DNA of 64,000 bases from a virus. The number at the start of each line of letters is the position of its first letter. Position 1 is the stretch's first letter. The DNA is taken from the IMG/VR virus record IMGVR_UViG_3300032020_000845, positions 1 to 64,000 of that record. One strand, written 5' to 3'. Made by a program: the position numbers and the translations under genes. Below are positions 2,498-28,045 of the stretch, piece by piece. Under the pieces are notes generated by a model. It was not told the origin of the DNA, ran no database searches, and was given only the letters and a program-made list of their open reading frames with translations.

Positions 2498-2513
2498 TTA
2501 AGGAGGAGGAATA

Positions 2514-3545: not shown

Positions 3546-3554
3546 GGAGGAATA

Positions 3555-4577: not shown

Positions 4578-4587
4578 GAGGTTTTAA

Positions 4588-8817: not shown

Positions 8818-8827
8818 AAAAAATAAA

Positions 8828-9100: not shown

Positions 9101-9101
9101 A

Positions 9102-9498: not shown

Positions 9499-9517
9499 GA
9501 AAAATAAAAAAAATTAA

Positions 9518-10665: not shown

Positions 10666-10874
10666 AATTTAAATTGAAAATCGAATTAGAGGCAGAAGCA
10701 GAAAGCGAAGAGAAACTTCGGCAGAATATAATGGAGCCTATGTTAGTTTTTGGGCAGGGAAAAATGACGAAAGAAGAGTTTTGGAATCGCTGGAAAAGGG
10801 AAAGGATTTGCGATTACGAATGGTATGGTTTATTTTTGACTGGTGATGATATACAAATAGAAGAAATTATATGA
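10662..10874 (+). CDS. small protein, unknown
   Basis: I choose the GTG at 10662 because GAGGAGG lies 5 nt upstream and the overlap with the preceding stop (GTGA) is the local style. An in-frame ATG at 10614 would add 16 residues without a ribosome site. The 70-residue product starts KFKLKIELEAEAESEEKLRQ and has two tryptophans in EEFWNRWKRERICDYEW. No family recognised. Confidence 0.45.
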   Translation: MKFKLKIELEAEAESEEKLRQNIMEPMLVFGQGKMTKEEFWNRWKRERICDYEWYGLFLTGDDIQIEEII

Positions 10875-10897
10875 GAAAAGTAAAATGAGGAGATAAG

Positions 10898-11419: not shown

Positions 11420-11420
11420 A

Positions 11421-11486
11421 ATAGCAGAAGAGATTGTGGGAGAAAGAGCCGAAGGTAAATTGAGAGTCTCGGTTCTCTTCTGCTAT
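11421..11486 (+). ncRNA. structured RNA element: 12-bp closing stem with inner hairpin
   Basis: ATAGCAGAAGAG (11421-11432) pairs perfectly with CTCTTCTGCTAT (11475-11486). Inside, AGCCGA (11447-11452) can pair with TCGGTT (11469-11474, one G-T pair) and stack directly on the outer stem. The element fills the only sizeable gap within the glycan operon and has no T-run after it, so it is not a standard terminator. It could be an RNase III site, a stabilising structure, a small RNA or a regulatory leader for the next gene. The fold is by inspection only. Confidence 0.5.
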
Positions 11487-11503
11487 AAATGTTATAAATC
11501 TTT

Positions 11504-12469: not shown

Positions 12470-12945
12470 AACTAAATTTAGGTTGTGGTAGTGAAATTTT
12501 ACCAGGATTTATAAATGTTGACGGTAGAAATCTTCCAGGAATAGATAAAGTTTCAGATATTAGGGATTTATCCTGGGTAAAAAATGATTCTTGCGAAGTA
12601 GTTAGAATGTCTCATATAATAGAGCATTTTAAAGAAAGTGAAATAATTAATATTTTAAAAGAATGTTTTAGGATTTTAGAAAATCAGGGAATACTTGAAA
12701 TTTATTGTCCTGATGCTAAGAAAATTGCTGCAGATTACGTAGAGGAAAAAATAGATTGTGGGGAATTTTCTAGATTGTTATTTGGCAATCAGGATTATAT
12801 AGAAAATCTTCATAAAGAGGCGATTGATAGGCTCCGGTTAGATAATATGGTAAAAGAAGTTGGGTTCGAGATTGTTGGAAGAAATCCTAGACCGAATGCT
12901 TACCTTTATGATTTGGGAAGCCAAGTAAAGAAGATTATAAAATGA
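12466..12945 (+). CDS. class I SAM-dependent methyltransferase
   Basis: A 159-residue small methyltransferase. Motif I is LNLGCGSEILPGFINVDG (residues 3-20), the form found in predicted methyltransferases of glycan clusters. It is followed by the acidic SDIRDL loop and SHIIEHF (motif II/DxxxEH region). The late block PNAYLYDLG is shared with the protein at 10898. It probably methylates a sugar or a glycan precursor. Starts on ATGA overlap and ends on ATGA overlap, so it is tightly coupled to the glycosyltransferases around it. Confidence 0.75.
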   Translation: MKLNLGCGSEILPGFINVDGRNLPGIDKVSDIRDLSWVKNDSCEVVRMSHIIEHFKESEIINILKECFRILENQGILEIYCPDAKKIAADYVEEKIDCGEFSRLLFGNQDYIENLHKEAIDRLRLDNMVKEVGFEIVGRNPRPNAYLYDLGSQVKKIIK

Positions 12946-13871
12946 AAATTTTTATTTCAGGGCCTTTGCATTCGCCAAATCAGAATGGTTTACTTATTGC
13001 AAGAGCTTTTCGAGAAATAGGGCATGAAGTTTTGACATATCCTATTGGAGCTCCTTCAGTAGATATTGTTGAAATGGTTAAACAATATAATCCGGCTTTT
13101 GTTTTACAGTGTGGAGGAAGAACTGTTTCTCCTTTACATTTATTGCCTTTAAGACAACTAGGATATAAGTTGGTTTTGTGGTATCCGGATGCGTATGGGC
13201 CAACCGCTCCTCCTGATATTGAATTTTTTAAACAGGTAAAAGGAAAATTTGATCTAATTTTGGTTGCAGTAAAAGGAATAGTTCCTCAACTTGAAGGTTT
13301 TGCTACAAAAGTTGTATGGGGACCTCAATATTATGATCAAACTTACTATAAACCAACTATTGAAAGATTGGATCCAAGATGTGAAATATATAATGTCTGT
13401 TTTATCGGACATAATAATGGAGGCATTTCTCCAGATCGAAATATTTACATTCCTAAATTGTATGAAAAGCATAGAATAAAAGTTATTGGGAGAGGTTTTG
13501 ATGTTCCTAGTATTGTTATAGAAACTAAAGAAATTGCAAATATATATAGAAATTCGAAAATTGCATTGAACTTTATTACCAAAATTAATAAATGTTCTTT
13601 ACAAATGTCTGATCGTATTTATAAGATTTTGGGTTGCTGTTCGTTTTGTTTGACCCAACCAATTCCTGGATTAGAACAATTGTTTCAAGATGGAAAACAT
13701 TTAGTAGTTTTTGATGGCTACGAAGATCTTTGTAGTAAAATCGAATATTATTTAAAACATGAAGAAGAAAGAGAAAAAATTGCAAAACAAGGACAACAAG
13801 AAGTTTTAGAGAAACATACTATTAGTACTAGAGTTCGCGAGTATTTAAAAGAAATTGAGAAAATATTATGA
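12942..13871 (+). CDS. CgeB-like glycosyltransferase
   Basis: A 309-residue protein of the spore-maturation CgeB / Glyco_trans_1_2 type. It has the N-terminal HSPNQNGLLIARAFREIGHEV acceptor-side motif, LVLWYPDAYGP near residue 80, and the C-terminal signature FQDGKHLVVFDGYEDL followed by KIEYYLKHEEEREKIAKQGQ, which is diagnostic of this family. Four such paralogues occur in the island (also 23364, 24305, 26286). Cytoplasmic GT-B enzyme; donor unknown. ATGA overlaps on both sides. Confidence 0.8.
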   Translation: MKIFISGPLHSPNQNGLLIARAFREIGHEVLTYPIGAPSVDIVEMVKQYNPAFVLQCGGRTVSPLHLLPLRQLGYKLVLWYPDAYGPTAPPDIEFFKQVKGKFDLILVAVKGIVPQLEGFATKVVWGPQYYDQTYYKPTIERLDPRCEIYNVCFIGHNNGGISPDRNIYIPKLYEKHRIKVIGRGFDVPSIVIETKEIANIYRNSKIALNFITKINKCSLQMSDRIYKILGCCSFCLTQPIPGLEQLFQDGKHLVVFDGYEDLCSKIEYYLKHEEEREKIAKQGQQEVLEKHTISTRVREYLKEIEKIL

Positions 13872-14803
13872 ATAAAATTATTGCTATCATTCCTCAAAAG
13901 TGTTTAGGGTTTGGTGGAGCTTTTTCGGTTTATGAGGGGTTAAGTCTTTTATCAGAAGTGGAATTACAAACGTTTGAAACCTTTAATCCAACAGTTGATA
14001 CAAAATTAGTTATTGGATTTGGATGGTCTCCTCCAAGAAAAGAAGGATTTAATTACAAAACAAGTTTTCTTTTTTGCTCTCCAATTCTTCAATGCGAATT
14101 TAGTAATGAATTAAATTTATTAAATGGGAAAATTCAGGAAGTAAATAAAGGTATTTTAGATTATTTATTTTTACTTCATAAACCAGATGCGGATGCTTTA
14201 AGCTCTATTTGGGGAGAAAAAATTATACATCTTCTTCCGTTATTTAACAAAAAATTACCAGAACCTCAATTTGAAAGTCGAAGAGGAATATGTTGTGTGG
14301 GCATGGCCCGCGGTAATAAAAATTATTATAATCAGGCTTTAGCAGTTGCTATTTCAGCATATGAAGATCAAGAATTATATACATTTGGGGATAAACCCGA
14401 ATTGTTTCATTTAAGTAAATCTCTTTTTAAACAAGATTGGAATTGGTTTGATTGGAAATCTAATGATGAATATTATAATATACTTAGAAGAATGAAATTA
14501 GGACTTCAGGTTTCTCTTGCAGAAAGTTTTTGTTATTTTGTACTGGAACTTGCAATGCTTAAAATACCTTCGATTGTTAGTAAAACAGTTAGTTGGTATG
14601 CTGATGATCTTGATTTAAATGATAATTGTGTTGTTGAAAATTCTAATGATCCTATTGAAATAAGAGATAGAATAAATAATATTTTAGACCATCCAGATAC
14701 TTATAGTGCTATTTGTGAAAGAAGTTATTTTGTTGCTCAAAGGATATTAAAAGATAATTTAGAAAAAACACAAAAAATTTTAGAGGATTTGATTAATGAT
14801 TAA
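13868..14803 (+). CDS. GT-B glycosyltransferase-like protein
   Basis: A 311-residue paralogue of the protein at 11504. Shared landmarks are FLFCSPILQCEF, the ESRRGICCVGMARGNKN block that opens the donor domain (about residue 136), and SLAESFCYFVLELAMLKIPSIVS (about residues 217-239). The second Glu of the GT4 E-x7-E pair is present (E..L and LELAM). It overlaps its neighbours at both ends. The divergence between the two paralogues suggests different acceptors in one assembly line. Confidence 0.7.
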   Translation: MNKIIAIIPQKCLGFGGAFSVYEGLSLLSEVELQTFETFNPTVDTKLVIGFGWSPPRKEGFNYKTSFLFCSPILQCEFSNELNLLNGKIQEVNKGILDYLFLLHKPDADALSSIWGEKIIHLLPLFNKKLPEPQFESRRGICCVGMARGNKNYYNQALAVAISAYEDQELYTFGDKPELFHLSKSLFKQDWNWFDWKSNDEYYNILRRMKLGLQVSLAESFCYFVLELAMLKIPSIVSKTVSWYADDLDLNDNCVVENSNDPIEIRDRINNILDHPDTYSAICERSYFVAQRILKDNLEKTQKILEDLIND

Positions 14804-15800
14804 TATAGTTATCCTTTCCCAGGCTGACTTTGCCGGTAGTGCTTATCAAGCAGCTTGTGCAATAAATTCTGTAAAAAAATTTAATGTGAGATGTGTTTCA
14901 ATGTCTAAGCATCCATTTGATTTTCCTCACGATATTATAATTCCTTGCCATCAAGATTCTCATAAAGGAACTTTTGCTAAAGAGTGCGAAAACTACGAAG
15001 AAGTAATGCAATTACTTAATGATGCAGATTTGATTCATCTGTGGAATGATATAGATCAGGATCCAAAATATATGGATTTTGAAAAAGGGGGAATAAATAT
15101 TCCATTAGGAAAACCAATAGTAGTAACTATGACGGGCTCTTTATATCGAAATGAACACGTTCGTTTAAATACAATTATAAAAGAAAGAGGGTATAAACTT
15201 GTAGTTCAAAATCCGATGTTACGATTTTTAGATGAGATAGAATCAGTTTTTATACCACATGCTGTAGATACTGAATTTTTACAGCCACTACAAAGAAATA
15301 ATGAAAAAATAACTTTAGGTGTTTATTTTGGTCATTATTATGCAACTGTGGGAGAAGATAGGAATTTTTTAATGTCTTGTATAAAAGATAAAAACATTAA
15401 TGTAATAGACCATTTATCAAGAAAAATTCTTTGGAAAGAACATATTGAGTTTATAAAAAATTGCGATATTCTTTATCACGGAATTAAGATAAGTGAAATT
15501 GTGAAATATATAGGAAGGTCATCATTGGAGGCAATGGCAATGGGCATTCCTGTAATAACGTTTGTTAATGAACAAAAAGCTATTGAATTATCTGAAGGAA
15601 AAATAGGAAGTTATATTCCTATTTATAATACAAAACTTGAACAATTAAAAAATCATTTAGATGAACTAATTAAAAATTTAGATTTAAGAATTGGGTTAGG
15701 TATTGACGGTAGAAAATGGGTTGAAAGACATTTCTCCTACAAAACAGTTGGAGAACAATATTCTAAAATATATGAAGAGGTATTGAATGGAATTGTTTGA
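14796..15800 (+). CDS. glycosyltransferase, GT4-like
   Basis: A 334-residue GT-B protein beginning NIVILSQADFAGSAYQAACAIN, a normal GT4 N-terminus. The middle has IVVTMTGSLYRN and a PHAVDTEFLQP donor-domain entry, the usual 'ip.GvD...F.p'. The donor site is IGRSSLEAMAMGIPVITF near residues 240-257, and the C-terminus has DGRKWVERHFSYKTVGEQYSKIYEE, the typical closing helix. It overlaps the previous gene by 8 nt and the next by 14 nt. Confidence 0.82.
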   Translation: MINIVILSQADFAGSAYQAACAINSVKKFNVRCVSMSKHPFDFPHDIIIPCHQDSHKGTFAKECENYEEVMQLLNDADLIHLWNDIDQDPKYMDFEKGGINIPLGKPIVVTMTGSLYRNEHVRLNTIIKERGYKLVVQNPMLRFLDEIESVFIPHAVDTEFLQPLQRNNEKITLGVYFGHYYATVGEDRNFLMSCIKDKNINVIDHLSRKILWKEHIEFIKNCDILYHGIKISEIVKYIGRSSLEAMAMGIPVITFVNEQKAIELSEGKIGSYIPIYNTKLEQLKNHLDELIKNLDLRIGLGIDGRKWVERHFSYKTVGEQYSKIYEEVLNGIV

Positions 15801-16518
15801 TAGTTTTATAGGTAAGATGTGGGTTTTTGATAAAGAAGAGATTGCAAAAGCAAGTCTTGCTGTTAGATTAAGTATGGGAGATTATATAAGTAATAAAATT
15901 AAAGCGGGTGGTTATGAACAAGATAATCTTGAAATTGTAGGAAAGTATTTACAATTAGGGTCTACTTGTGTGATTGCAGGCGCTAATATAGGAATGTATT
16001 CTGTTTTTACATCTCAAAAAGCTAATAAGGGAATTGTTTATTCGTTCGAACCTAATTTTGAAATTTATAAAGTTCTTGCACAAAATTCGATATTGTATAA
16101 AAATATAAAACCTTTTAATTTTGGTTTACATAATAAAAATAGTATTATAAATTATAGAGGATTAAATTTTAAGGTTGTTGTTGGAGATGAATTTTTACAA
16201 CATTTAGACAAAGTAGATTTTATTAAGATAGATGTTGATGGGGCAGAAGTAGGAGTTATCCAAGGTTTACAAGAACTTATTAAAAGAAGTCCGAACTTGT
16301 TAATGCTTTGTGAATTTAGTAAAGTTCATTATGAACTTTCTGGTTTTACTATGGATCAATTCTTTGATTTAATTGAAAGTTTAAGATTTCAGTATGGTAG
16401 AATTTATAAAGGAACTATTGATTTGAAGAATGCTAAAAATCAATTAATGCTAGTTGCTGCAAACCAACATTGGAATTTACTTTTATGGAAAGGAATAGAA
16501 CCTTTTTGGGAAGTATAA
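15787..16518 (+). CDS. FkbM-family methyltransferase, motif I altered
   Basis: A 243-residue FkbM-type SAM methyltransferase. The family signature VDFIKIDVDGAEVGVIQGLQ lies near residues 147-166, after a GANIGMYSVF helix and an FEPNFEIYKVLAQN segment. The motif I aspartate found in the adjacent paralogue (CIDVGANVG) is absent here (CVIAGANIG), which may weaken SAM binding. FkbM enzymes typically O-methylate sugars or glycans. A tandem paralogue follows at 16543. Confidence 0.75.
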   Translation: MELFDSFIGKMWVFDKEEIAKASLAVRLSMGDYISNKIKAGGYEQDNLEIVGKYLQLGSTCVIAGANIGMYSVFTSQKANKGIVYSFEPNFEIYKVLAQNSILYKNIKPFNFGLHNKNSIINYRGLNFKVVVGDEFLQHLDKVDFIKIDVDGAEVGVIQGLQELIKRSPNLLMLCEFSKVHYELSGFTMDQFFDLIESLRFQYGRIYKGTIDLKNAKNQLMLVAANQHWNLLLWKGIEPFWEV

Positions 16519-16542
16519 AATAAAATTACAAAGGAGAATTAA

Positions 16543-17283
16543 GTGGAATTAGTTGATACTTTTGTAGGAAAAATGTGGCTTCTAGATAAAAACGATGAAG
16601 CTAAAAAAGATGAAAAGGTTAGAGTAGGCAGTGGTTATTTTGTAAGTCAGCGTATTAAACAAGGGGATTATGAAAATAAGGAACTTGAAATTGTTAAATC
16701 TTATTTAAAACCTGGAATGACTTGTATAGATGTAGGGGCAAATGTAGGTGTATATTCAGTTTTGGCTGCCCAAAAAGTAGGAGACGGAATTGTTTATGCG
16801 TTTGAACCTGTTTTTGGTATTTATGAAGTTCTTGCTAGAAATTCAACTCTTTATAAAAATATTCGTCCTTTTGATGTTGGATTAAATAATAAAGCAGGTA
16901 TTACTTATTTTAAAGGTATTAAAGAGTTAGATTTAAATGTAGTTGTTGGAGACGCTCTTTTGCAGGATGTTGAGAAAGTAGATTTTATTAAAGTTGATGT
17001 AGATGGAGCTGAGCCAGGGGTAGTTGAAGGTCTCCAGAATCTTATTAGTAGAAGTCCTAAATTGGTAATGATGTGTGAACTTAGCAAAGTGCATTACGAG
17101 TTAGCTGGTTTTACTGAACTACAGTTTTTTAATTTAGTTGAGAAATTAGGATTTCAATACGGTAGAATGTTTAATGGTCAAGTTGATTTAAGATCTTGTA
17201 AACAATTAATGAATGTATCTGCGGCAAGAGCATGTAATATACTTTTGTGGAAAAATGTTGATCCTTTTGTGAAAGGAATGTAA
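16543..17283 (+). CDS. FkbM-family methyltransferase
   Basis: A 246-residue paralogue of the preceding gene, starting at GTG after AAGGAGAA. It has an intact motif I (CIDVGANVGVYSV), FEPVFGIYEVLARN and the FkbM hallmark VDFIKVDVDGAEPGVVEGLQ. It likely O-methylates a hydroxyl on a sugar or glycan built by the neighbouring glycosyltransferases. The pair arose by tandem duplication; this copy looks fully equipped for catalysis, the upstream copy less so. Confidence 0.82.
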   Translation: MELVDTFVGKMWLLDKNDEAKKDEKVRVGSGYFVSQRIKQGDYENKELEIVKSYLKPGMTCIDVGANVGVYSVLAAQKVGDGIVYAFEPVFGIYEVLARNSTLYKNIRPFDVGLNNKAGITYFKGIKELDLNVVVGDALLQDVEKVDFIKVDVDGAEPGVVEGLQNLISRSPKLVMMCELSKVHYELAGFTELQFFNLVEKLGFQYGRMFNGQVDLRSCKQLMNVSAARACNILLWKNVDPFVKGM

Positions 17284-17284
17284 A

Positions 17285-17776
17285 ATGGAAAAAAAGTTAA
17301 ATTTAAATTTGGGGTGTGGAGATCAAATACTCCCTGGATTTTTGAATGTAGATGCTAATTCTAATAAAGATGTTGTTTTTGATGATGTTGTTTTTCTTAT
17401 AAACTTTTCTGATAATGGCACGGATATGATTTATGCCGCTCATGTTCTTCAATGTATTTTTCCGCGAAGTAGGGTTTTGATTGCTTTGGAAAATTGGTAT
17501 AAGGTGTTAAAACCTGGTGGGCATATTATTATTGAAGTGCCTGATATAGTACCTGTGACTAAGGCTTATCTTGAAGGAAAAGTGCCTATTGAGACCTTTA
17601 TTCAGGGAATTTATGGCGTGGATAAAGATGGTATAAGACAAACAATATGTTTTAGTTTTGACTACCTAAAAAAATTATTAGAAGAAGTTGGCTTTAAGAA
17701 TATAAAAAGAATTGATCAGCCTTCATATAGTCGTCATTGTAAAGAGACTAATATTTGTGTTGAGGCTGAAAAATGA
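17285..17776 (+). CDS. class I SAM-dependent methyltransferase
   Basis: A 163-residue methyltransferase, related to the one at 12466: LNLNLGCGDQILPGFLNVDA at residues 5-24 is motif I, AAHVLQCI marks motif II, and WYKVLKPGGHIIIEVPD is the post-II/III strand. The C-terminal GFKNIKRIDQPSYSRH is the usual final strand and loop. A methyltransferase acting on a glycan intermediate is the most likely role. Stop overlaps the next ATG. Confidence 0.78.
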   Translation: MEKKLNLNLGCGDQILPGFLNVDANSNKDVVFDDVVFLINFSDNGTDMIYAAHVLQCIFPRSRVLIALENWYKVLKPGGHIIIEVPDIVPVTKAYLEGKVPIETFIQGIYGVDKDGIRQTICFSFDYLKKLLEEVGFKNIKRIDQPSYSRHCKETNICVEAEK

Positions 17777-18834
17777 AAATTCTTGTAATATCGTCAGGTA
17801 ATATTACTCAATTAGCTAAATACCCGCAACACTTTGCTAAAATGGGTCACGAATGTGTTTTTATAAATCCAGCTTGGCAAAATGTTTTATGTGGGAAAAC
17901 TGCAGAAGAAGAGTTTGGAGGATTGCATATAAGGTTTTATACATGGAAAGATTTTGCTTTGAATAGGGTGTGGGAAAAAGAAAAGTTTGATGTAATTTTT
18001 GGTACTCAGCATGGAGCTTCAATAGAGACTTTGCATTATCAAGAAATGCTAAAAATACCAGCTTTATTGCAGATTTTGGATATTGCTGAAGGATCTGATC
18101 TTGCTCAAAATTTTCCTCAAGAGTATCAAAGATTATGTATGACTCAAAAATCTTATTTAGAAGCTTATAAAAGAATAAATTATTTGACAGGAATAAATCC
18201 TGCGATTCCAAAGCAAATTAAAAAGTTAATTGGAAGAGAAGATTGTTTTTGTGCTTTTTATCCTGTTGATACTGCTTTGTATGATTCTGTTCCTGAACAA
18301 AAAACTGAAGATTTTGTTTTTATAGTTAGTCGTTTAACACCTTTTAAATGTGTAGATTTAGCAATTAAAGCTTGTGCTTATGCTAAAAAGAAATTGGTTA
18401 TTGCTTCTGATGGAGGATTGAGAAAGGAGTTAGAAAAATTAGTAAAAGATTTAGGCTCGGATGTAGAATTTCTTGGATATATTCAGGATAAACAAAAAGC
18501 AGAACTAATGAAAAAATGCAAGCTCCATATATTCACGCAACAATGGGCGGAAGCACCTTGTGTTCCAAGCGCAGAAGCTTTGTATTGTGGAAAGCCTTCA
18601 ATTATTTTTGATTACCCAGATCAGAGAGCGATTGAAGGAAATTGTTCTTATTACGTAACTCCTGGAGATTGGGAAGAAATGGGAAGATATATAAATTGGA
18701 TATGGGCTCATTATGATGAAGCAAAAGAACAAGCTTTTAGAGGAAGCAAATGGGTAAAAGAAAATTTGTCTCCTAATATAGTTGCGCAACAAATTTTAAA
18801 TATTTTGGAAGAGGTTGCAAAAAAATGTTATTAA
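17773..18834 (+). CDS. glycosyltransferase, GT4-like
   Basis: A 353-residue GT4-type enzyme. The N-terminus is KILVISSGNITQLAKYPQHF, the donor domain opens with FVFIVSRLTPFKCVDLAIKA (about residues 177-196), a very typical GT4 segment, and the donor site is AEAPCVPSAEALYCGKPSII. It closes with KWVKENLSPNIVAQQIL. It overlaps the following MetE-type gene by 10 nt, so the methionine-synthase genes are in the same transcript as the glycosyltransferases. Confidence 0.85.
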   Translation: MKILVISSGNITQLAKYPQHFAKMGHECVFINPAWQNVLCGKTAEEEFGGLHIRFYTWKDFALNRVWEKEKFDVIFGTQHGASIETLHYQEMLKIPALLQILDIAEGSDLAQNFPQEYQRLCMTQKSYLEAYKRINYLTGINPAIPKQIKKLIGREDCFCAFYPVDTALYDSVPEQKTEDFVFIVSRLTPFKCVDLAIKACAYAKKKLVIASDGGLRKELEKLVKDLGSDVEFLGYIQDKQKAELMKKCKLHIFTQQWAEAPCVPSAEALYCGKPSIIFDYPDQRAIEGNCSYYVTPGDWEEMGRYINWIWAHYDEAKEQAFRGSKWVKENLSPNIVAQQILNILEEVAKKCY

Positions 18835-19793
18835 CTACGACTGTAGGAAGCTTTCCTAAGCCAGATTATCTTGTTAGAGCAAGAAATCTTTTCAGTCAGA
18901 AAAAGATTTCTTTAGAGGAACTGGAAAAGTTAGAGAAGAAGGCGACTTTTGAGGTTATAAAACTTCAGGAAAGAATTGGATTAGATATTTTAGTTCACGG
19001 GGAGATGGAAAGAGGAGATATGGTTACTTATTTTGCTGAGAGATTGGAAGGATTTACCATTAGCGGTTTGGTTCGTTCTTATGGAAATAGATATTACAAA
19101 AAGCCGATTGTGTTATCAGAGATAAAAAGAAAAGCTCCCATAACCTTGGAGATGTTTGAATATGCTTCTAGTCTAACTGAAAAACCGGTTAAGGGGATGT
19201 TGACTGGCCCTTATACCATGTGCGATTGGTCTTTCAACGAATACTATCCTACTCGAAGGGATTTAGTTTTGAAATTAGCAGAGATTATTCACCAGGAGGT
19301 GGTAGATTTAGATAAAGTTGGAGCCCAATATATTCAAATAGATGAACCCGCAATTTCGACTAGACTGGATGAGATTGATTTAGCTATTGAAGGGATGAAG
19401 ATAGTTACTGATGGAATAAAGGCCAAGACCATATCTCATATCTGCTATGGAGATTTCCGAACCATTTATCCAAAAATTCTGGAATTTGCTGTTGACCAAT
19501 TGGATCTGGAATTTGCCAATAATAATTTTTCCAATTTAGATATTTTTAAAAATCCTCCCTTCACTAAAGAGATTGCAGTAGGAGTTATAGATGTACATAG
19601 CCATATAATTGAAAATAAAGAAGAGGTCAAAAAGAATATTAGAAAAGTGCTGGAAGTTTTTCCTAAAGAAAACGTTTATATTGATCCAGATTGTGGCCTC
19701 AAGACTAGAACATTAGAGGAAGCGGAAGAAAAGCTTAAAGTAATGGTTGAGGCGGTGAAAGAAATAAGGAAGGAGTTAGGAATAAAATGTTGA
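18825..19793 (+). CDS. core-MetE-type methionine synthase (C-terminal-domain only)
   Basis: A 322-residue cobalamin-independent methionine-synthase-like protein consisting only of the catalytic TIM barrel, like archaeal MetE and bacterial core MetE, and about half the length of E. coli MetE. Visible motifs are TVGSFPKP (6-13), GEMERGD (about 59), MLTGPYTM, QIDEPA and DPDCGLKTR. The zinc ligands of the family are all present: the HIC pair near 205-207, Glu in LEFAN near 229, Cys in DPDCG near 290. It transfers a methyl group to homocysteine; the donor of core enzymes may be methylcobalamin or a protein-bound methyl rather than methyl-THF. Sampled GC is higher (37-47%) than in neighbours, suggesting transfer. 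Confidence 0.85.
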   Translation: MLLTTTVGSFPKPDYLVRARNLFSQKKISLEELEKLEKKATFEVIKLQERIGLDILVHGEMERGDMVTYFAERLEGFTISGLVRSYGNRYYKKPIVLSEIKRKAPITLEMFEYASSLTEKPVKGMLTGPYTMCDWSFNEYYPTRRDLVLKLAEIIHQEVVDLDKVGAQYIQIDEPAISTRLDEIDLAIEGMKIVTDGIKAKTISHICYGDFRTIYPKILEFAVDQLDLEFANNNFSNLDIFKNPPFTKEIAVGVIDVHSHIIENKEEVKKNIRKVLEVFPKENVYIDPDCGLKTRTLEEAEEKLKVMVEAVKEIRKELGIKC

Positions 19794-20770
19794 TTACGAC
19801 AGTAGTAGGAAGTTATCCTAAAATTTCTTCTGATAAAACAGCTTTGAATTTGAGGAATTCTTTAAATAGGTTTGATAAGGGAGAATTATCAGAGGAAGAT
19901 TTGAAAGTGATCTATGATAGAGTTATTTTAAGGGTGGTTCAGGAACAAGAAGAAATCGGAATTGATGTAGTAACTGATGGTCAGATTCGATGGGAAGATC
20001 TTTTTGATGGGGTGAGCCAAAGTTCTTGCGGATGTAAAAGAGGATCTTTGGTAAGATTTTTTGATAATAATTTCTATTATAGAACTCCAATAGTAATGAG
20101 TTATATGGATCGTTTGCAGGCCAGGGATTTTGAAGGATATAATCGGATAGTGGATGATTTTATATTTTTAAGAAAATGTTCAGCTGTGAGAGTAAAGGCG
20201 GTGGTTCCAGGTCCTATGACTTTTGTGGCTTTGGTTGAGGATAAGATGTTTAACAATAGGTTGGAATTGATGAAGGATTATTCTCGATTTTTATGTAGAT
20301 TGTCGAGAAAGTTAGATAGGCTTGGAGCATTTTATATTCAATTGGATGAGCCTATTTTTGGGTTTGATTGTGAAATGGTTCCATATTTTGAATATTTGAA
20401 GAGTATTGAGGAAATAAGAGGTGGGATGAAAGCAAGATTGTTTGTGCATACATATTTTGGGAAGTTTCATCACTTGTGGTTGGGTAGTTTAGATATTGAC
20501 GGTTTGGGCGTGGATGTTGTTAGTGATCCCAAAAGTTTAGAAAATTTATTAGACTTAGACTTTAGGAAGATTATAGTTTTAGGCTGCATTGATGCCAGGA
20601 CAACCAAGATGGAAAATGAGAAAGAGGTGGTTAAAATTGTAGGTAAGGTGGTAGAGAAGTTTGGAAAAGAAAATGTTTGGTTAAGTCCTTCGTGTGGTCT
20701 TGAGTTTATTCCTCATGATATAGTAATAAAGAAGTTGGAGTTGTTGAAGAGAGTAGCAATGATATTTTAG
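19787..20770 (+). CDS. MetE-like paralogue with degenerate zinc site
   Basis: A 327-residue second MetE-type barrel, overlapping the first by 7 nt, with AAGGAG upstream. It keeps VVGSYPK, DGQIRWEDLFD, VPGPMTF, QLDEPIFG and SPSCGLEF. At the metal site the HxC pair reads HTY (about 221-223), the Glu is Asp (about 243) and only the last Cys (about 303) is clearly kept. It may bind a different metal or acceptor, or serve as a partner subunit, as the N-terminal half of full MetE is a metal-free relative of the C-terminal half. The adjacent pair might together stand in for a full enzyme. Confidence 0.75.
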   Translation: MLITTVVGSYPKISSDKTALNLRNSLNRFDKGELSEEDLKVIYDRVILRVVQEQEEIGIDVVTDGQIRWEDLFDGVSQSSCGCKRGSLVRFFDNNFYYRTPIVMSYMDRLQARDFEGYNRIVDDFIFLRKCSAVRVKAVVPGPMTFVALVEDKMFNNRLELMKDYSRFLCRLSRKLDRLGAFYIQLDEPIFGFDCEMVPYFEYLKSIEEIRGGMKARLFVHTYFGKFHHLWLGSLDIDGLGVDVVSDPKSLENLLDLDFRKIIVLGCIDARTTKMENEKEVVKIVGKVVEKFGKENVWLSPSCGLEFIPHDIVIKKLELLKRVAMIF

Positions 20771-20803
20771 AAGGAAATTGTGATTAACCAAAAAAAGAGG
20801 TAA

Positions 20804-21388
20804 ATGATATATTGTTCTGTTGAAGAATTTTTAAAAGCAATATTGGAAAAACCTTTTGAAGAAGGTTGGGATGAGAACGGAGAGCCTCCTTTTTGTAAGT
20901 TATGTCAAGAAGTTTTTGAGATAATAAAACCCTTTAATACTTTTTTAGAAATAGGTCTAGGTTTTGGAGATTTTTCATTATATTTATTAAGCCAGCACAA
21001 AAAAGTTGAAATGTTGGATGTTAAAGAAGATACTTTGATATCTATGAAAAAGATTTGTGAAGAAAGAAATTATAATTATGTTTTTCATCATCAAGATATA
21101 ACCAATCCAAAGATATCTAAAATCTATGATGTGGTAATTGCAATTGAGGTTATTGAACACATTAAGGATTACAAAAAAGCTATTTTTAATATGATGAAAT
21201 TAGCGAAGCATAAAGTTATTTTGACTACCCCAGTTTTAGGAAGTTTTTATAGTTTAGATCATAAACATGTTTTTTCAGAATCTGATTTTAAATTTATTAA
21301 TAAGGCCTATAAAATTAAACGTATTATAACAAAGAAGAAAGATATTTCAACTAGTAAAAGAGCTTTTTTAATTGAGATTAATATTTAA
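20804..21388 (+). CDS. class I SAM-dependent methyltransferase
   Basis: A 194-residue methyltransferase with FLEIGLGFGDFSLYL as motif I (about residues 47-61), VEMLDVKEDTL after it, and IAIEVIEHIKDYKKA as the motif II helix typical of Methyltransf_11/23 proteins. The ATG follows AAAAAGAGGTAA. It reopens the AT-rich glycan cluster after the two MetE-type genes. The target is unknown; context favours a sugar. Confidence 0.78.
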   Translation: MIYCSVEEFLKAILEKPFEEGWDENGEPPFCKLCQEVFEIIKPFNTFLEIGLGFGDFSLYLLSQHKKVEMLDVKEDTLISMKKICEERNYNYVFHHQDITNPKISKIYDVVIAIEVIEHIKDYKKAIFNMMKLAKHKVILTTPVLGSFYSLDHKHVFSESDFKFINKAYKIKRIITKKKDISTSKRAFLIEINI

Positions 21389-21397
21389 GGAGAAAAT

Positions 21398-22651
21398 ATG
21401 GGTAAGTTTAAGTTGCTTGAAAAAGCTTCGATGGAATTTGAAAAAAAGTTAGGTTTAGTTTTTCCTGAACCTGAACCTGAGATTAAAGAAATCCCTAAAA
21501 ATAAAAGACCTTCGGATAGAAAAAGAATACCTGTTTGTTGGCCCTCAATTACTGCTTTAGAAAAAGAATATGTTTTTAGAGTTGTTAATGATGGTTGGGT
21601 TTCTTCTTTAGGTCCTGAAGTTAAAAAATTTGAAAAAGAATATGCAGAAAAGTTTGGAGTTAAATATGCAATATCTTGTACTAATGGAACCGAAGCTCTT
21701 CATTTAGCAGTTGCTTCTTTAGGTATCGGTCCTGGAGATGAAGTTATTCTTCCAACATTTACAATGGTTGCCTCTATAAATTCTGTTCTTTATATGGGAG
21801 CAACTCCTATATTAGTAGATGCTGATGATCATTTAAATATAGATGTAAAACAAATTGAGCAAAAAATAACTAAAAATACTAAAGCCATTATGCCAGTACA
21901 TATTTATGGGTGCCCTTGTGATATGACTGAAATAATGAGATTGGCTAAAAAGTATAATTTGAGGGTGATTGAGGATGTTGCAGAAAGTCATGGCTCATTT
22001 TATAAAGGAAAAATTACAGGGAGTATCGGAGATGTTGGGTGTTATTCTTTTTATGCAAATAAAATCATCACTTGTGGAGAAGGTGGGATGTTAACTACTA
22101 ATAATGAGGAACTTGCAGAAAGAATTAGGACTTTAATGAACCACGCTTTTAGTCTCGAGCGTCATTTTTGCCATAGACTCGTGGGTTTTAATTGTAGAAT
22201 GACTGCTCTGCAAGCGGCTCTTGGCAGAGCTCAATTAAAAAGATTTGATAAGATATTGGCGAAAAAAGAACAATTACGCAATAGATATATTCAAAATTTA
22301 CGTATTTCCCCAAGAATTTATATTCCTAATAGGGATCCAGAAGAAGGAATAAAATCTGTTTGTTGGATGTTTGGAGTGCAAATAATTGAAGATTATTTTC
22401 CTGTTAAAGGGAATATAAAAAATAAAGTTAGAAATTTATTAGCTAAAAGAGGAATAGAAACAAGAAACTTTTTTGTTCCAATGCATTTACAACCCATTCA
22501 ATATAAAAGATTTGAAGGGCAAAGATATCCTATATCTGAATCATTAATGGAGTCTGGATTTTACTTGCCGTCTGCAGTGGATTTAAATGTGGATGAAATA
22601 GATTATGTTTGTGAGCATTTATTAGATATTGTGGAAGGAATAAAGATATGA
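21398..22651 (+). CDS. DegT/DnrJ/EryC1/StrS sugar aminotransferase
   Basis: A 417-residue PLP-dependent aminotransferase that converts a keto-sugar nucleotide to an amino sugar. The core shows SCTNGTEALHLAVASLGIGPGDEV split over the cofactor phosphate site, VIEDVAESHGS with the PLP-N1 Asp, and the catalytic Lys in FYANKIITCGEGGM (about residue 222). The first 50 residues are an extra charged leader. Length fits the family (370-400) plus that leader. It tells us the island makes at least one amino sugar. No dehydratase or epimerase is seen in this window, so the keto-sugar must come from the host or from elsewhere in the genome. Confidence 0.9.
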   Translation: MGKFKLLEKASMEFEKKLGLVFPEPEPEIKEIPKNKRPSDRKRIPVCWPSITALEKEYVFRVVNDGWVSSLGPEVKKFEKEYAEKFGVKYAISCTNGTEALHLAVASLGIGPGDEVILPTFTMVASINSVLYMGATPILVDADDHLNIDVKQIEQKITKNTKAIMPVHIYGCPCDMTEIMRLAKKYNLRVIEDVAESHGSFYKGKITGSIGDVGCYSFYANKIITCGEGGMLTTNNEELAERIRTLMNHAFSLERHFCHRLVGFNCRMTALQAALGRAQLKRFDKILAKKEQLRNRYIQNLRISPRIYIPNRDPEEGIKSVCWMFGVQIIEDYFPVKGNIKNKVRNLLAKRGIETRNFFVPMHLQPIQYKRFEGQRYPISESLMESGFYLPSAVDLNVDEIDYVCEHLLDIVEGIKI

Positions 22652-23367
22652 TTGAATTATTAGATCCTTCTCTTAAAATAAATTTAGATTATATTGCTAT
22701 TGATTACTTATTAGTTGGTATTTGTGAAAAAAGTCATGGTTTGGAGGGGGCGGAGGGTCTTATGAAATCTCATTATATGCTAGATTACCCTTGGCTTTTT
22801 TTGCATACTCCAATAACGCCAAAAAGTAAAGTTCTTGATGCTGGGTGCGGCAGGGGAGTTTTTCAGATTTTTTTAGCTAATAAATGTGAATTATATACTG
22901 TAGATAGAAGGGGGTTTCATATCGAAGAATGGTCAAAAGAAAAAGAAAAACAATTCAATGTAAAATTAAATTTTTCTTGTCAAGATTTAAAAAATACAAA
23001 TTATGAAGATAATTTTTTCGATCATATAGTGTCTTGTAGTTCTTTGGAACATAATTCATTTGAGGATGCAAAACTTATATTTAAAGAATTAGAAAGAATT
23101 TTAAAGCCTGGAGGAAGAATTGTTTTTACCTTAGTTGCTTGGAGAGAATTTAAGGTTTTATATGGAAATGCGAAAGACCCTATTATTATGTGTTATACTG
23201 ATGAAAAAATAAAAGAATTGATTGAAGGAACAAATTTAAAGTTATTGAGTGATGAAAATAATTTTGACCAATTTGAAGATCTTATTAAGAAGTTTTGCAA
23301 AGAATATCCAATGTATGGGGCTGATTATATACCAGTTGGAGTAGTTTTTCAAAAGGATAATGTATGA
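22648..23367 (+). CDS. class I SAM-dependent methyltransferase
   Basis: A 239-residue methyltransferase. Motif I is VLDAGCGRGVFQIFL (about residues 68-82), followed by the acidic-loop TVDRRGFH and the Methyltransf_11 segment HIVSCSSLEHNSFEDA...ELERILKPGGRIVFTL. It is the largest of the non-FkbM methyltransferases here and has an N-terminal helical extension. ATGA overlap with the aminotransferase suggests it acts on the same sugar, for example N- or O-methylation; that is inference. Confidence 0.8.
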   Translation: MIELLDPSLKINLDYIAIDYLLVGICEKSHGLEGAEGLMKSHYMLDYPWLFLHTPITPKSKVLDAGCGRGVFQIFLANKCELYTVDRRGFHIEEWSKEKEKQFNVKLNFSCQDLKNTNYEDNFFDHIVSCSSLEHNSFEDAKLIFKELERILKPGGRIVFTLVAWREFKVLYGNAKDPIIMCYTDEKIKELIEGTNLKLLSDENNFDQFEDLIKKFCKEYPMYGADYIPVGVVFQKDNV

Positions 23368-24308
23368 AAATACTATTAATTATAAAAACAGATAATTCTT
23401 TTTCTAATGGTATTCGCATATGGGAATCTTTAGTACGTTTAGGACATGAAGTACATGCCGTTTCTTTTGGAAAATCAATAGAGGAATATTGTTCAAAGTA
23501 TAAAAAATTTAATCCAGATTTTGTATTTCAAATAGGAATAGGCCCTCTAAAGGGTGATCTTAGTATGCAACAAGGATTGAAAGATTTGGAAGCAAAACTG
23601 GTATTGTGGTACCCAGATGCTTATTGGTTGTTTCAAGAGCCATCAAGATCTTATTTTTTAGATGCTTTTAATATATTTGATTTATTTCTTGTTACCATGA
23701 GAGGACATGTAGAAGTTGCTATTCCTTATACAAATAAAGTTGTTTGGGCTCCTCATTATTTTGATTCAACTTTTTTTAAAACAGATAAAGTTTTGGAACA
23801 AGAAAATGATGTTATTTTTGTAGGAGGTAAAACTGAAGCATCTCCTCAGAGAGAAGAATATTTAAAAGATGTTGAAAAGGAAGGCTATAAGTTAGAAGTT
23901 ATTGGGTATGGTTTTAATATTAATAACAAAAGAACTCATGCTGATTGGAATGGGGAGCATATTGCTTCCGTTTATAAAAATTCTAAAATAGGGTTGAATA
24001 TAATTTCAGGAGGTATACTAAATTGCGATTTGCAATTTTCTGCAAGAGTATATCAAACAATGGGATGTGGATGTTTTCTTTTAACTGAATATATTCCAAA
24101 TATTGAAGAACTTTTTACTCCAAAAAAGCACCTTGATGTATTTTATACTAAAGAAGAAATGTTAGAAAAGATTGATTATTATTTAAAACATCCTGAAATT
24201 AGAGAAGAAGTTGCAAAACAAGGACAAGAGGAAGTTTTGAAAAATCATGATATTGACATTCGCATAAACCAATATTTAGAAATAATTAGAAAGGAATTAC
24301 ACATATGA
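23364..24308 (+). CDS. CgeB-like glycosyltransferase
   Basis: A 314-residue CgeB/Glyco_trans_1_2 protein. KLVLWYPDAYW near residue 80, KVVWAPHYFDSTFF near residue 125, and the C-terminal FTPKKHLDVFYTKEEMLEKI with HPEIREEVAKQGQEEV are the family landmarks. It is a close paralogue of the next gene (24305), sharing QFSARVYQTMGCGCFLLTEY. The two probably arose by tandem duplication and diverged. Cytoplasmic; donor and acceptor unknown. Confidence 0.8.
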   Translation: MKILLIIKTDNSFSNGIRIWESLVRLGHEVHAVSFGKSIEEYCSKYKKFNPDFVFQIGIGPLKGDLSMQQGLKDLEAKLVLWYPDAYWLFQEPSRSYFLDAFNIFDLFLVTMRGHVEVAIPYTNKVVWAPHYFDSTFFKTDKVLEQENDVIFVGGKTEASPQREEYLKDVEKEGYKLEVIGYGFNINNKRTHADWNGEHIASVYKNSKIGLNIISGGILNCDLQFSARVYQTMGCGCFLLTEYIPNIEELFTPKKHLDVFYTKEEMLEKIDYYLKHPEIREEVAKQGQEEVLKNHDIDIRINQYLEIIRKELHI

Positions 24309-25258
24309 GAATCTTGGTAATAGCAAAAAGATTTAAAAGTACTAATGGAAGTTTAAATGCATATCAAAGTGGTATTCGGATTTCTGAAGAGTTAAAAAGA
24401 CAAAAACATGAAGTTGCTACTTTTTTCTATAATTCTAAAATAGCTGATATAAAGAAAAATTATTTGGAATTTCAACCGCATTTTGTTTTTCAGACTGGTG
24501 GAGTAAATAGAAGTTTTGATATTGCAAAATGTTTAAAAAGTTTAGGCGCAAAAATTGTGTTGTGGCATCCAGATGCTTATTTTCTTTTGCAAAAAGATTC
24601 TAAAAAGTTATTTTTAGAAGTATTTGACATAGTTGATTTGTTTATAACTACTATGAAAGGGCATGTAGAAATTGCAAAACCTTATACTGATAAAGTAGTT
24701 TGGAGTCCTCACTTTTTTGATCATACTTATTATAAATCTGATAAAAATTTATCAAAAGCGCATGACGTAATTTTTGTAGGAAATAAAACTCCTTGTTCTC
24801 TTCAACGTAAAGGATATTTTGAAAGTATAGTTAAAGACAATTATAAGTTAGCTATTGTAGGTTGGGGATTTGACCGGCTTGGAGGTGTTATTAACTATGG
24901 CGGGGAATTTATTGCAGATTATTACAAAAGTTCTAAAATTGGTTTAAATATTATTTCTGGAGAAGACCTGAATTATAATTTACAATTTTCAGTTCGTGTT
25001 TATCAAGTGATGGGTTGTGGGTGTTTTTTACTTACAGAATATATTCCAGGAATTGAGGAACTTTTTATTCTTAAAAAACATCTTGATGTGTTTCATACTA
25101 AAGAGGAAATGTTAGAGAAAATTAAGTATTATTTGGAACATGAAGAAGAAAGAAATAAAATTGCAGCGCAGGGACAAAAAGAAGTTTTTGATAAATACAC
25201 AATTGACAAAAGTGTTCATAGATACCTTTCTATTATTCAGGAGAGATTGGAGTTATGA
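24305..25258 (+). CDS. CgeB-like glycosyltransferase
   Basis: A 317-residue tandem paralogue of the preceding gene. The matching blocks are KIVLWHPDAYFL, KVVWSPHFFDHTYY, QFSVRVYQVMGCGCFLLTEY and KKHLDVFHTKEEMLEKIKYYL, while the N-terminal acceptor half differs more, as expected when paralogues use one donor but different acceptors. ATGA overlap at both ends. Confidence 0.8.
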   Translation: MRILVIAKRFKSTNGSLNAYQSGIRISEELKRQKHEVATFFYNSKIADIKKNYLEFQPHFVFQTGGVNRSFDIAKCLKSLGAKIVLWHPDAYFLLQKDSKKLFLEVFDIVDLFITTMKGHVEIAKPYTDKVVWSPHFFDHTYYKSDKNLSKAHDVIFVGNKTPCSLQRKGYFESIVKDNYKLAIVGWGFDRLGGVINYGGEFIADYYKSSKIGLNIISGEDLNYNLQFSVRVYQVMGCGCFLLTEYIPGIEELFILKKHLDVFHTKEEMLEKIKYYLEHEEERNKIAAQGQKEVFDKYTIDKSVHRYLSIIQERLEL

Positions 25259-26289
25259 AAATTGGAACAATAGGATATTCTAATGCTTCTGGATTAGGGG
25301 TAATGTTGAAATTTTTTAGGAAACATCTCGAGATGGATAGTCAACTTGTTATAGATTGGGAAGCAAAAGGAATGAATTTAGAAGACTTAGGTTGTAAGTA
25401 TGTTGTGACTTCTAAGGAATATCCGAGTATAGAAACTCTTGAGGAGTTTATAAGTTTTAAACCCGATGTAGCTTTGATAATAGAGTATCCATTTTGTTGG
25501 GACTATTTAAAAATTTTAAAAGAAAAAGGAATTAAGATTGTTTATATTCCTATGTTGGATAGTGTGGGATTAAATGTTCTTGAACTATGTAAAGATTTTG
25601 TAGATTTGTGGCTTTGTGTTACTAAACATAGTTATAAACTAATTCAATTAAAAGGATGGAAATGTTGTTATTTACCATATCCTGTTGATACAAATTATTT
25701 CAAATTTGAAAATAGAAAATTATGTGAAAAGAATTTAACATTTCTTCATAATGCTGGATATTGTAATCCAAGAAAGGGTACAGATTTAGTTTTTGCTGCT
25801 TACTTAAAATTGAAAGAAAAAATTCCTAATATATCCTTGATTGTGAATTCTCAAGTACCTATGCCTTTTGTGGAAGGCCCCGATATTAGAATACATAATA
25901 CTAAAGAGTTATCTGATTTATATAGGGGAGGTAATATTTATTTAGCTCCTTCAAGAAAAGAAGGATTAGGACTTCCTATTTATGAAGCAATGGCATATGG
26001 TTTTCCTGTGATTACAACAAATGCTCCTCCAATGAATGAAGTGGTAACTGATGAAAGGCTGTTAGTAAAAGTTGAAAATTTTGGGGAAGGTTTGTTTAGT
26101 ATAATAGGAGGAATTGCTTTTGAACCAAGTTTAGATAATTTGGTTTTAAAAATGGAACATATAGTAAATGCTGATTTAGATGCTATATCGAAAGCAAGTA
26201 GAAAAGTTATTGAAGAAAAATTTTCCTGGAATATTTTGAAATCAGAATATTTGAATGTTTTTCAAAAAGTAGTTGATGGGAAATTATGA
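25255..26289 (+). CDS. glycosyltransferase, GT4-like
   Basis: A 344-residue GT4-type enzyme. The donor domain opens with LTFLHNAGYCNPRKGTDLVF (about residues 159-178), and the donor site SRKEGLGLPIYEAMAYGFPVI (about 231-251) is a textbook E-x7-E. The C-terminal helix is EEKFSWNILKSEYLNVFQ. The N-terminal half has YIPMLDSVGLNVLELC. It is overlapped by CgeB-like genes on both sides. Confidence 0.85.
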   Translation: MKIGTIGYSNASGLGVMLKFFRKHLEMDSQLVIDWEAKGMNLEDLGCKYVVTSKEYPSIETLEEFISFKPDVALIIEYPFCWDYLKILKEKGIKIVYIPMLDSVGLNVLELCKDFVDLWLCVTKHSYKLIQLKGWKCCYLPYPVDTNYFKFENRKLCEKNLTFLHNAGYCNPRKGTDLVFAAYLKLKEKIPNISLIVNSQVPMPFVEGPDIRIHNTKELSDLYRGGNIYLAPSRKEGLGLPIYEAMAYGFPVITTNAPPMNEVVTDERLLVKVENFGEGLFSIIGGIAFEPSLDNLVLKMEHIVNADLDAISKASRKVIEEKFSWNILKSEYLNVFQKVVDGKL

Positions 26290-27275
26290 AAATATTAGTA
26301 TTTGCTTATTGTAATAAACCTTATCAAAATGGTCTTTTAATTGCTAGAGAAATGAAAACTCTTGGGCATGAAGTTTTAGTTAAATGTTTGGTTGAAAAAG
26401 AAAGGTGTCTACCATATTCTCATCCTTTAAAACCTGGATCTGCTAAATATGTATATGAACAGCAGATGTTTGAATTTGCGAAACAGTTTAACCCCGATTA
26501 TTTATTTGTGACTGGTACAGGGGTAGAGCCTAAAGAGTTTTTTGAAGGAATCTCTAAATTAGGAATAAAGTTAGTATTGTGGAATGCGGACGCTTATGTT
26601 CCAGATAAAGATAAAGGGTATTGGGATAGATATAAAGGGGTGTTTGATTTGATTATAACTTCTGTGGAAGGTATGGCAAAAGTTTTAGAGGATTATGCGA
26701 AGAGTGTTACATTTTTACCTCAGTATTATGATAATGTTTATTATAAGCCAACTATTAAAAGGTTAGATGCAGAACATGAAATTTATGACATATGTTTTAT
26801 TGGAAATACTCAAAGGGGACGGGGAATTTTTGCAAGAGAGAATTGTATTAAAGCTCTAAACAAGTTTTGTAAAGTAACAGTTTTTGGGAATGTATCTGGG
26901 GTTTCTTCTAAGGCAGAACTTTATGGTACAGAGATGGCTAATGTTTATAGGCAGTCTAAAATTACATTTGATACCCTGCACGTAATAAAAAAGGATTTAG
27001 GTTGGAAAATTTCGGATAGAATTTTTAAAGCTATGGGTTGTGGCTGTTTTTTCATTTGTCCTCCAATGCAGGGACTTGAACAATTTTTTACTCCGGGAAA
27101 ACATTTAGTAATTTATGATGGAAGTGTTGAAGATTTAGAATTAAAAGTTAAATATTATTTAGAATATGAAGATGAAAGAGAAAAAATAGCAAAACGTGGT
27201 TATGAAGAAATTATGAAAAATCATACTATTGGTGTTAGAGTAAATCAATATTTGGATGTGATGGGAAGAATATGA
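26286..27275 (+). CDS. CgeB-like glycosyltransferase
   Basis: A 329-residue CgeB-type protein, closest by eye to the one at 12942: both have the QNGLLIARE/A start, FLPQYYDN/D..YYKPTI.RLD, DICFIGN and KHLVIYDGS-type ends. The C-terminal KVKYYLEYEDEREKIAKRGYEE is the family signature. It overlaps the methylene-THF reductase-like gene by 4 nt, placing that gene firmly within the glycan operon. Confidence 0.8.
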   Translation: MKILVFAYCNKPYQNGLLIAREMKTLGHEVLVKCLVEKERCLPYSHPLKPGSAKYVYEQQMFEFAKQFNPDYLFVTGTGVEPKEFFEGISKLGIKLVLWNADAYVPDKDKGYWDRYKGVFDLIITSVEGMAKVLEDYAKSVTFLPQYYDNVYYKPTIKRLDAEHEIYDICFIGNTQRGRGIFARENCIKALNKFCKVTVFGNVSGVSSKAELYGTEMANVYRQSKITFDTLHVIKKDLGWKISDRIFKAMGCGCFFICPPMQGLEQFFTPGKHLVIYDGSVEDLELKVKYYLEYEDEREKIAKRGYEEIMKNHTIGVRVNQYLDVMGRI

Positions 27276-28045
27276 AATTATTTTCGAGTTTTACGAAAGT
27301 TATAGAAATTATTCCTCCTTCGGGTAAAGATATGAACTCGTTTTTTAAGAGTATTAAGGTATTGAAAGAAACAGGTGTTAAGGTGGTTAGTGTTGTATCT
27401 AATCCTATGGCACAACCAAAATTGCCCGCTTTGTATATTGCTCAATATTTGATATCAGAAGGATTTAAAACAATTGTTCATTATCCTCTTTCTGGAAGGT
27501 CTGAAGTTATAGTGAAATCTGATATGCTTCAGGCAGTATCAATGGGAGTAGATGTTATGCTTATTTTATCTGGAGATCCTCATGGAATAACGTTTGAATC
27601 TGGTATGAATATATTAGATGCTATTAAATTTGTAAGATCGCATAATATTTTAGTTGGGGTCGCCGCAAACCCTAATAAAATAAACCATGAGCATTTAAAA
27701 GCCAAAGTAGATGCTGGTGCAAATTATTTTCAAACTCAACCAGTGTTTACAATAGATTGTGCATTAAAGTTTTTGAAAGAAATAGAACAATACAATTTAC
27801 CTGTGTTAATAGGTATAGTGGTTCCAAAATCTAAAAAACATCTAGAAAGATTATTACAAATTCCTGGAGTGGTTATACCAAAAGAATATTTGAAAAGTTT
27901 TGAACAAATAAATACAGAAGAAGATTTTATGACAAATGCTTTTGCGCGCGCGAATAAAATTATTGAAACGATTAAAGAAATGACAGCTGGAGTTTATTTG
28001 TCTATGCCTCAGTCTATGTTTAGATATATAGGAGAGAAAATATAA
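27272..28045 (+). CDS. methylene-tetrahydrofolate reductase-like protein (MetF-like)
   Basis: A 257-residue TIM-barrel protein with MetF landmarks: VIEIIPPSGKDMN at residues 10-22 (family 'FE..PPkg'), VVSVVSNPMA, MLILSGDPHG near residue 98-107 (family 'L.GD'), GVAANPNK, and KVDAGANYFQTQPVF near residue 143-157. It is shorter than E. coli MetF (296). It should reduce methylene-THF to methyl-THF, or catalyse a related folate step, feeding the MetE-type proteins encoded 7 kb upstream in the same operon. It is the last gene of the island. Confidence 0.78.
   Translation: MKLFSSFTKVIEIIPPSGKDMNSFFKSIKVLKETGVKVVSVVSNPMAQPKLPALYIAQYLISEGFKTIVHYPLSGRSEVIVKSDMLQAVSMGVDVMLILSGDPHGITFESGMNILDAIKFVRSHNILVGVAANPNKINHEHLKAKVDAGANYFQTQPVFTIDCALKFLKEIEQYNLPVLIGIVVPKSKKHLERLLQIPGVVIPKEYLKSFEQINTEEDFMTNAFARANKIIETIKEMTAGVYLSMPQSMFRYIGEKI

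Follow-up and report, generated by a model that had tools for sequence, protein, structure and literature searches.

Split MetE is the term used by Price et al. (2021) for the arrangement in which a MetE-type methionine synthase, occurring in archaea and in some bacteria, is made of two adjacent proteins, with methyl-folate as the predicted methyl donor; the pair of Pyrococcus forms a complex, as cited by these authors, and Sulfobacillus is a bacterial case (PMC7857596). Among viruses, Lake Baikal virus VP_139 carries MetK, an S-adenosylhomocysteine (SAH) nucleosidase and three methyltransferases (PMC7678222). The subject of the present analysis is a stretch of 64 kb (the window), the first part of the 106,979-bp linear IMG/VR virus record IMGVR_UViG_3300032020_000845 (G000 in the comparisons), in which two metE-like genes and one metF-like gene lie in the glycan operon of a phage. 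Our results indicate that the two metE-like genes encode the subunits of a split MetE which, together with MetF, probably constitutes a phage-carried methyl-supply module inside the operon, feeding the glycan methyltransferases via methyl-tetrahydrofolate (methyl-THF), methionine and S-adenosylmethionine (SAM). As far as the searches show, it would be the first split methionine synthase on a virus. The three genes, which an earlier note on this DNA had placed in a run of overlapping genes, are indeed found there:

18825..19793, + strand: metE-C, predicted catalytic (zinc/homocysteine) subunit of a split MetE, 322 amino acids (product P0001), assigned by PF01717, NF003317 and active-site residues
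19787..20770, + strand: metE-N, predicted folate-binding-type, non-catalytic subunit of the split MetE, 327 amino acids (P0002), assigned by a PF08267 score above that of PF01717 and by an AlphaFold2 (AF2) model
27272..28045, + strand: metF, predicted compact stand-alone methylenetetrahydrofolate reductase (MTHFR), 257 amino acids (P0003), assigned by PF02219, active-site residues and an AF2 model

The MetE-type gene pair

The profiles PF01717, NF003317, PF08267 and PF02219 place the three proteins inside the MetE and MetF families, above chance similarity, as the earlier note had supposed. The product of 18825 matched PF01717 with 296.6 bits (cut-off 21) and the NCBIfam model NF003317, a stand-alone methionine synthase family, with 447.5 bits (cut-off 406). 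In case of 19787, the N-terminal domain model PF08267 scored higher than PF01717 (91 versus 82.5 bits). Both proteins, with 322 and 327 residues, are below the 400-residue size limit for split MetE components. In the alignment S9, E60, D173, H205, C207, E229 and C290 of P0001 correspond to S433, E484, D599, H641, C643, E665 and C726 of the E. coli enzyme, and all seven zinc/homocysteine residues are the same as in the cellular C-halves. P0002 has a Tyr in place of the Cys643 equivalent and its zinc positions read H, Y, D, C, which is an incomplete set; among 72 cellular N-halves examined there was not one with a His at the H641 zinc-ligand position. The AF2 model of P0002 (pLDDT 90.1) matches MetE structures.

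In a scan of 84,980 species genomes, 18825 had 80 close relatives. In 73 of these loci a 19787-like gene was present, nearly always just upstream, i.e. in the order N then C, and in 39 of the 80 an MTHFR domain was present inside the fetched stretch, mostly as part of a BHMT-MTHFR fusion shortly downstream. Cells thus link these activities as well: the bacterial pair is adjacent in the order N-C, and roughly half of the 80 loci have an MTHFR domain within the stretch that was fetched. A script listing gave an apparent C-N order in two cellular loci, which was rejected as a product of overlapping stop-to-stop frames.

The earlier note had taken the pair for two core-MetE-type synthases, possibly using cobalamin-bound methyl. 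Each protein does have the size of a half MetE barrel, as expected of two independent enzymes of this kind. However, one half has no zinc Cys and resembles the N domain, the two genes form a conserved split-MetE pair, and no match to a corrinoid-protein family or to DUF1852 (MesX) was obtained in the operon proteins scanned. Since the pair combines a zinc-site half with a folate-type half, the use of cobalamin is unsupported for 18825 and 19787, and we rejected the two-enzyme explanation as hardly credible. Judged from the sequences, the two genes encode one two-subunit, folate-dependent methionine synthase, a split MetE, and by analogy a heteromeric complex of the two proteins using methyl-folate would be expected.

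The MetF-type gene

The 27272 product matched PF02219 with 71.2 bits (cut-off 24). The best structure matches of its AF2 model (pLDDT 90.6) were the MTHFRs of Thermus and E. coli, with TMq up to 0.86 (Thermus). E12, D102 and Q156 of P0003 are invariant across the phage and cellular rows of the alignment; by motif position we take them to be the catalytic E28, D120 and Q183 of E. coli MTHFR, an enzyme that has no row in this alignment. As to inactive sites, which the earlier note had named as a possible objection, the catalytic residues are kept in 27272 and, all seven of them, in 18825. Sequence and model point to a divergent MTHFR that retains its catalytic residues and is presumably active.

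The divergence is considerable: identity to the nearest cellular MTHFR domains, which are Zixibacterial, is about 27%, and in the tree P0003 ends a very long branch of about 4 changes per site. In 119 genomes of the Zixibacteria phylum the best matches of P0003 were mostly open frames of about 610-650 amino acids, which is the size of the BHMT fusion, and not of about 315 amino acids, the usual length of a stand-alone MetF. The phage MetF may thus descend from a BHMT-MTHFR fusion that has lost its BHMT part.

The glycan operon and its counterparts in related viruses

Related viruses were found via the terminase, first G001 and G002, then G005, G006 and G007. G001 and G005 are fragments that lack the glycosyltransferase region, and the comparison of operons rests on G000, G002, G006 and G007. 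The operon is a same-strand (+) gene run at 5650-28045, adjoining the tail genes; its glycosyltransferases, methyltransferases and aminotransferase listed below were assigned by Pfam scans and are syntenic in G002:

57-1067, + strand: baseplate protein (phrog_6 match)
1085-2497, + strand: open reading frame (ORF) between the baseplate gene and the tail-fibre-like genes
starts 2514, 3555 and 4588, + strand: three paralogous tail-fibre-like proteins directly upstream of the glycan operon (tail block 57..5505)
5650..18834, + strand: upstream operon part, glycosyltransferases at 5650, 7657, 9518, 11504, 12942, 13868, 14796 and 17773
5650..18834, + strand: upstream operon part, methyltransferases at 10898, 12466, 15787 (FkbM), 16543 (FkbM) and 17285
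20804..27275, + strand: downstream operon part, methyltransferase 20804, DegT aminotransferase 21398, methyltransferase 22648, glycosyltransferases 23364, 24305, 25255 and 26286

The paralogues 2514, 3555 and 4588 presumably serve as tail fibres. The scans confirmed the inventory of the earlier note, which had counted seven SAM methyltransferases beside the glycosyltransferases: the operon holds twelve glycosyltransferase-like ORFs, seven SAM-methyltransferase-like ORFs (two of them FkbM) and one DegT aminotransferase. The glycosyltransferase-like 11504 and 14796 score below the Pfam cut-off, while methyltransferase 12466 just reaches the cut-off, BLAST also giving a match between its G002 orthologue and 10898. 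The one-carbon genes belong to this run, with overlaps of 10 nt between the glycosyltransferase 17773 and 18825, 7 nt between 18825 and 19787, and 4 nt between 26286 and 27272. An Rfam scan detected no riboswitch or other Rfam family in the window.

G002 (168 kb) carries the same glycan operon almost gene by gene, including an orthologue of MetF of 63% identity, which is likewise the last operon gene, before a helicase. Comparison of the two metF genes gave nonsynonymous and synonymous divergences (dN, dS) of 0.24 and 0.70, i.e. a dN/dS of about 0.35, which means purifying selection. G002 and G007 show the same order, with the tail genes followed by the glycosyltransferase operon. G006 and G007, which are more distant relatives, each have part of the glycosyltransferase set together with nucleotide-sugar genes and a single recognised methyltransferase, and neither MetF nor MetE was found in these two. 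Among the five related records MetF occurs only in G002 and the MetE pair in none, several of the records being fragments. As regards the recurrence in related phages by which the earlier note proposed to judge its idea, MetF recurs once, in the same operon position in G002, while the MetE pair is so far one-off.

In G002 the genes bordering the MetE pair have orthologues that directly adjoin each other with an ATGA overlap, and MetE is absent there. From these comparisons MetF is the older member and the MetE pair apparently the younger. The composition of the pair, described below, favours its insertion in G000 over a loss in G002.

Some further features of these genomes were recorded. The G002 orthologue of methyltransferase 20804 (L094:3250-3950; about 123,249-123,949 of G002) has an in-frame TGA and a 125-residue remnant, thus the methyltransferase beside the MetE site appears to be broken in G002. 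Two homing-endonuclease-like ORFs, recognised by eye from zinc-ribbon and repeat motifs, lie inside the G002 glycan operon (126845-127618 and 129068-129772) and are absent from the window. Shortly after metF the window encodes an XPB-like/ResIII helicase (28589-30070), 75% identical in G002, and in G001 an ORF at 71543-72844 contains a long GNQ(I/V)xNQ(I/V) repeat.

Origin of the MetE pair

P0001 shares 78% identity with proteins of Zixibacteria and is nested inside them in a quick tree (SH-like approximate likelihood ratio test, SH-aLRT, 96), which places the putative donor of the catalytic subunit in Zixibacteria. P0002 is 44-46% identical to the Zixibacteria N-halves, which are its nearest neighbours in the tree, but its branch is long and its placement weak. 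Cellular pairs whose C-halves are 74-77% identical have N-halves that are 59-64% identical, while the values for the phage versus the Zixibacteria locus L007 are 77% and 45%. Either the N subunit evolved faster in the phage or it would have come from another donor.

The GC content at third codon positions (GC3) of the pair is 0.31, versus 0.14-0.21 in the other genes of the phage that were measured, among them metF; its GC content is 0.35, the Zixibacteria loci having 0.41-0.56 overall. The higher GC3 and a GC content below that of the Zixibacteria loci fit a fairly recent, partly adapted acquisition, and the pair appears to have been acquired recently. The phage order, C then N, is reversed relative to the cellular N-C loci.

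An assembly chimera or cellular contamination, in which the pair is a piece of host chromosome joined to the phage, would agree with the high Zixibacteria identity, with the absence of the pair from G002 and with a GC3 unlike that of the neighbouring genes. However, both flanking genes are orthologous to neighbouring genes in G002, the coding overlaps are intact, the gene order is reversed compared to the cellular one, no fusion gene or other chromosomal neighbours are present, and the GC content is partly phage-adapted. An artefact of this kind was rejected, its probability being very close to nil. The genome around the one-carbon genes is a genuine phage genome, as the baseplate protein and the synteny with G002 and the terminase-bearing relatives demonstrate.

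The host is probably a member of Zixibacteria, on the basis of gene ancestry and, weakly, of dockerin-like lipoproteins; dockerin type I domains (PF00404), unusual for a phage, occur in two ORFs of the window that resemble lipoprotein genes (48161-48481 and 49095-50177). Full-length MetH was not found in eight of the ten Zixibacteria genomes checked, including G003, G004 and G076 near the donor, a count that genome completeness may affect. Since MetH was mostly not found, these bacteria may rely mainly on split MetE as their methionine synthase.

The proposed methyl-supply module

In the module that we propose, MetF would convert 5,10-methylene-THF to 5-methyl-THF, and the split MetE, with 18825 as catalytic and 19787 as folate-binding subunit, would use it to turn homocysteine into methionine in a cobalamin-free reaction. 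Host MetK would then make SAM from methionine, the seven phage methyltransferases would spend it on the glycan made by the neighbouring glycosyltransferases, and host enzymes would return SAH to homocysteine. In case of G002, MetF alone would feed the MetE of the host. The glycan is the likely methyl sink because of the operon linkage and because MetF occurs only where methyltransferases are many, that is in G000 and G002, with their methyltransferase-rich operons, and not in the one-methyltransferase operons of G006 and G007. From sequence and context we infer enzyme activity, complex formation, the glycan as sink and a benefit to the phage.

Several observations weigh against this proposal. 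No MetK or SAH hydrolase was recognised by motif search in the phage proteins, hence the phage does not close the cycle and the host must complete it; of the methyl-supply line of the earlier note, the homology of MetF and MetE, the methyltransferase-rich context and the plausibility of the role are supported. G002 is without the MetE pair, hence the operon does not depend on it. The link between MetF and the number of methyltransferases is based on four viruses. Finally, P0002 has diverged faster than the cellular N-halves, being 45% identical where about 60% would be expected from the C-half.

This last point, together with the strong divergence of MetF, its occurrence without MetE in G002 and the unusual His at a zinc-ligand position of P0002, would also agree with a different function, in which the reaction served by MetF, and perhaps by the pair, is not homocysteine methylation but e.g. 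the transfer of methyl from 5-methyl-THF to an acceptor in glycan or nucleotide-sugar synthesis. E12, D102 and Q156 are kept in MetF, however, and the catalytic MetE half has all seven zinc/homocysteine residues and 78% identity to cellular enzymes, which makes a changed acceptor unlikely for that half. As a whole we regard another acceptor as quite improbable.

The genes could also act as a general methionine/SAM or one-carbon booster, for translation or e.g. for phage DNA methylation, their place in the glycan operon being due to chance insertion. The phage has DNA-methyltransferase-like ORFs at 31577 and 36540 and, as folate-linked genes, folE2 and a ThyX-like ORF at 96566 (the three ORFs being read from the sequence), and the MetE pair is, from its GC3, probably a recent insertion. 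Against such a booster, two viruses have kept MetF, 63% identical between them, as the terminal gene of the glycan operon, and the two relatives with one recognised operon methyltransferase each are without it. We consider this alternative unlikely, though less so than a changed acceptor. The supply of methyl groups to the glycan methyltransferases is the explanation we prefer. In a more far-reaching and rather unlikely version of it, the module would be dedicated to virion decoration, with a methyl-rich glycan on the tail fibres and with MetF, later MetE, offsetting the drain on host SAM.

The folE2 gene belongs to a deazaguanine (preQ0) set at 42645-46372 of the window, comprising QueD-like, FolE2, radical-SAM QueE-like and QueC genes, which suggests that the DNA of the phage is modified; FolE2 is also the first enzyme of folate synthesis. 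Within the set, conservation in G001 and G002 is lowest for QueE (about 26%).

Searches for further cases

IMG/VR scans with the single sequences of P0001, P0002 and P0003 gave no matches, and alignment-based scans with MetE-C and with MTHFR domains found no other virus; exact short motifs are needed in these scans, thus distant copies can escape them. A scan with the alignment of the two phage MetF proteins recovered G002 again. None of the GenBank phages searched convincingly carries metE or metF. The GenBank 'phage' matches to MetE were judged to be contamination (short unannotated records and bacterial chromosomal contigs filed as phage). Also discarded were the 'yitJ' of Microcystis phage MaAM05 (MW495066), which looks bacterial and lies among aspS, coaE, gatA, purF, purL and speE, and MT835862, an unverified, unannotated 16-kb clone. 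PHROG 25791, a full-length MetE family which matches both halves, may stem from contaminating records. The literature search revealed no paper on phage metE or metF with glycans ('metF' in two matches was unrelated to viral genes) and no report of MTHFR together with methionine synthase on a phage.

Comparison with known systems

With the proposed module, viral control of the SAM cycle would reach the side of the methyl donor, i.e. 5-methyl-THF and homocysteine remethylation, and would be tied to a candidate sink in the form of a glycan operon rich in methyltransferases. The phages of this group carry neither gene, MetF alone or MetF plus MetE, and offer a natural comparison for asking whether glycan modification by viruses is limited by the supply of methyl groups.

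The MetE pair resembles most the split MetE of the Pyrococcus PF1268/PF1269 type (PMC7857596), with adjacent half-size proteins of less than 400 amino acids, one bearing the zinc/homocysteine site (PF01717) and one scoring higher with PF08267; here, however, the pair is on a phage, its order is C-N, its N subunit is fast-diverged and no BHMT-MTHFR fusion adjoins it. The metE-N/metE-C/BHMT-MTHFR locus of Zixibacteria (e.g. L007) links the same activities and its catalytic subunit is 77-78% identical, whereas the phage MetF is a separate protein of 257 amino acids without a BHMT domain, about 27% identical and encoded 6.5 kb away. The core-MetE/MesA-D enzymes (Deobald 2020, PMC7005905; Price 2021, PMC7857596) share the half-size MetE barrel but act without a folate subunit, with a corrinoid or MesX partner, while in the phage the folate-type subunit is adjacent. 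Lake Baikal virus VP_139 likewise combines methyltransferases with SAM-cycle genes, but there they are for MetK and SAH removal, and here for MTHFR and homocysteine remethylation, in connection with a glycan operon. Glycan/methyltransferase operons next to the tail genes of phages likewise have glycosyltransferases, FkbM methyltransferases and a sugar aminotransferase; unlike those, the present operon includes one-carbon genes.

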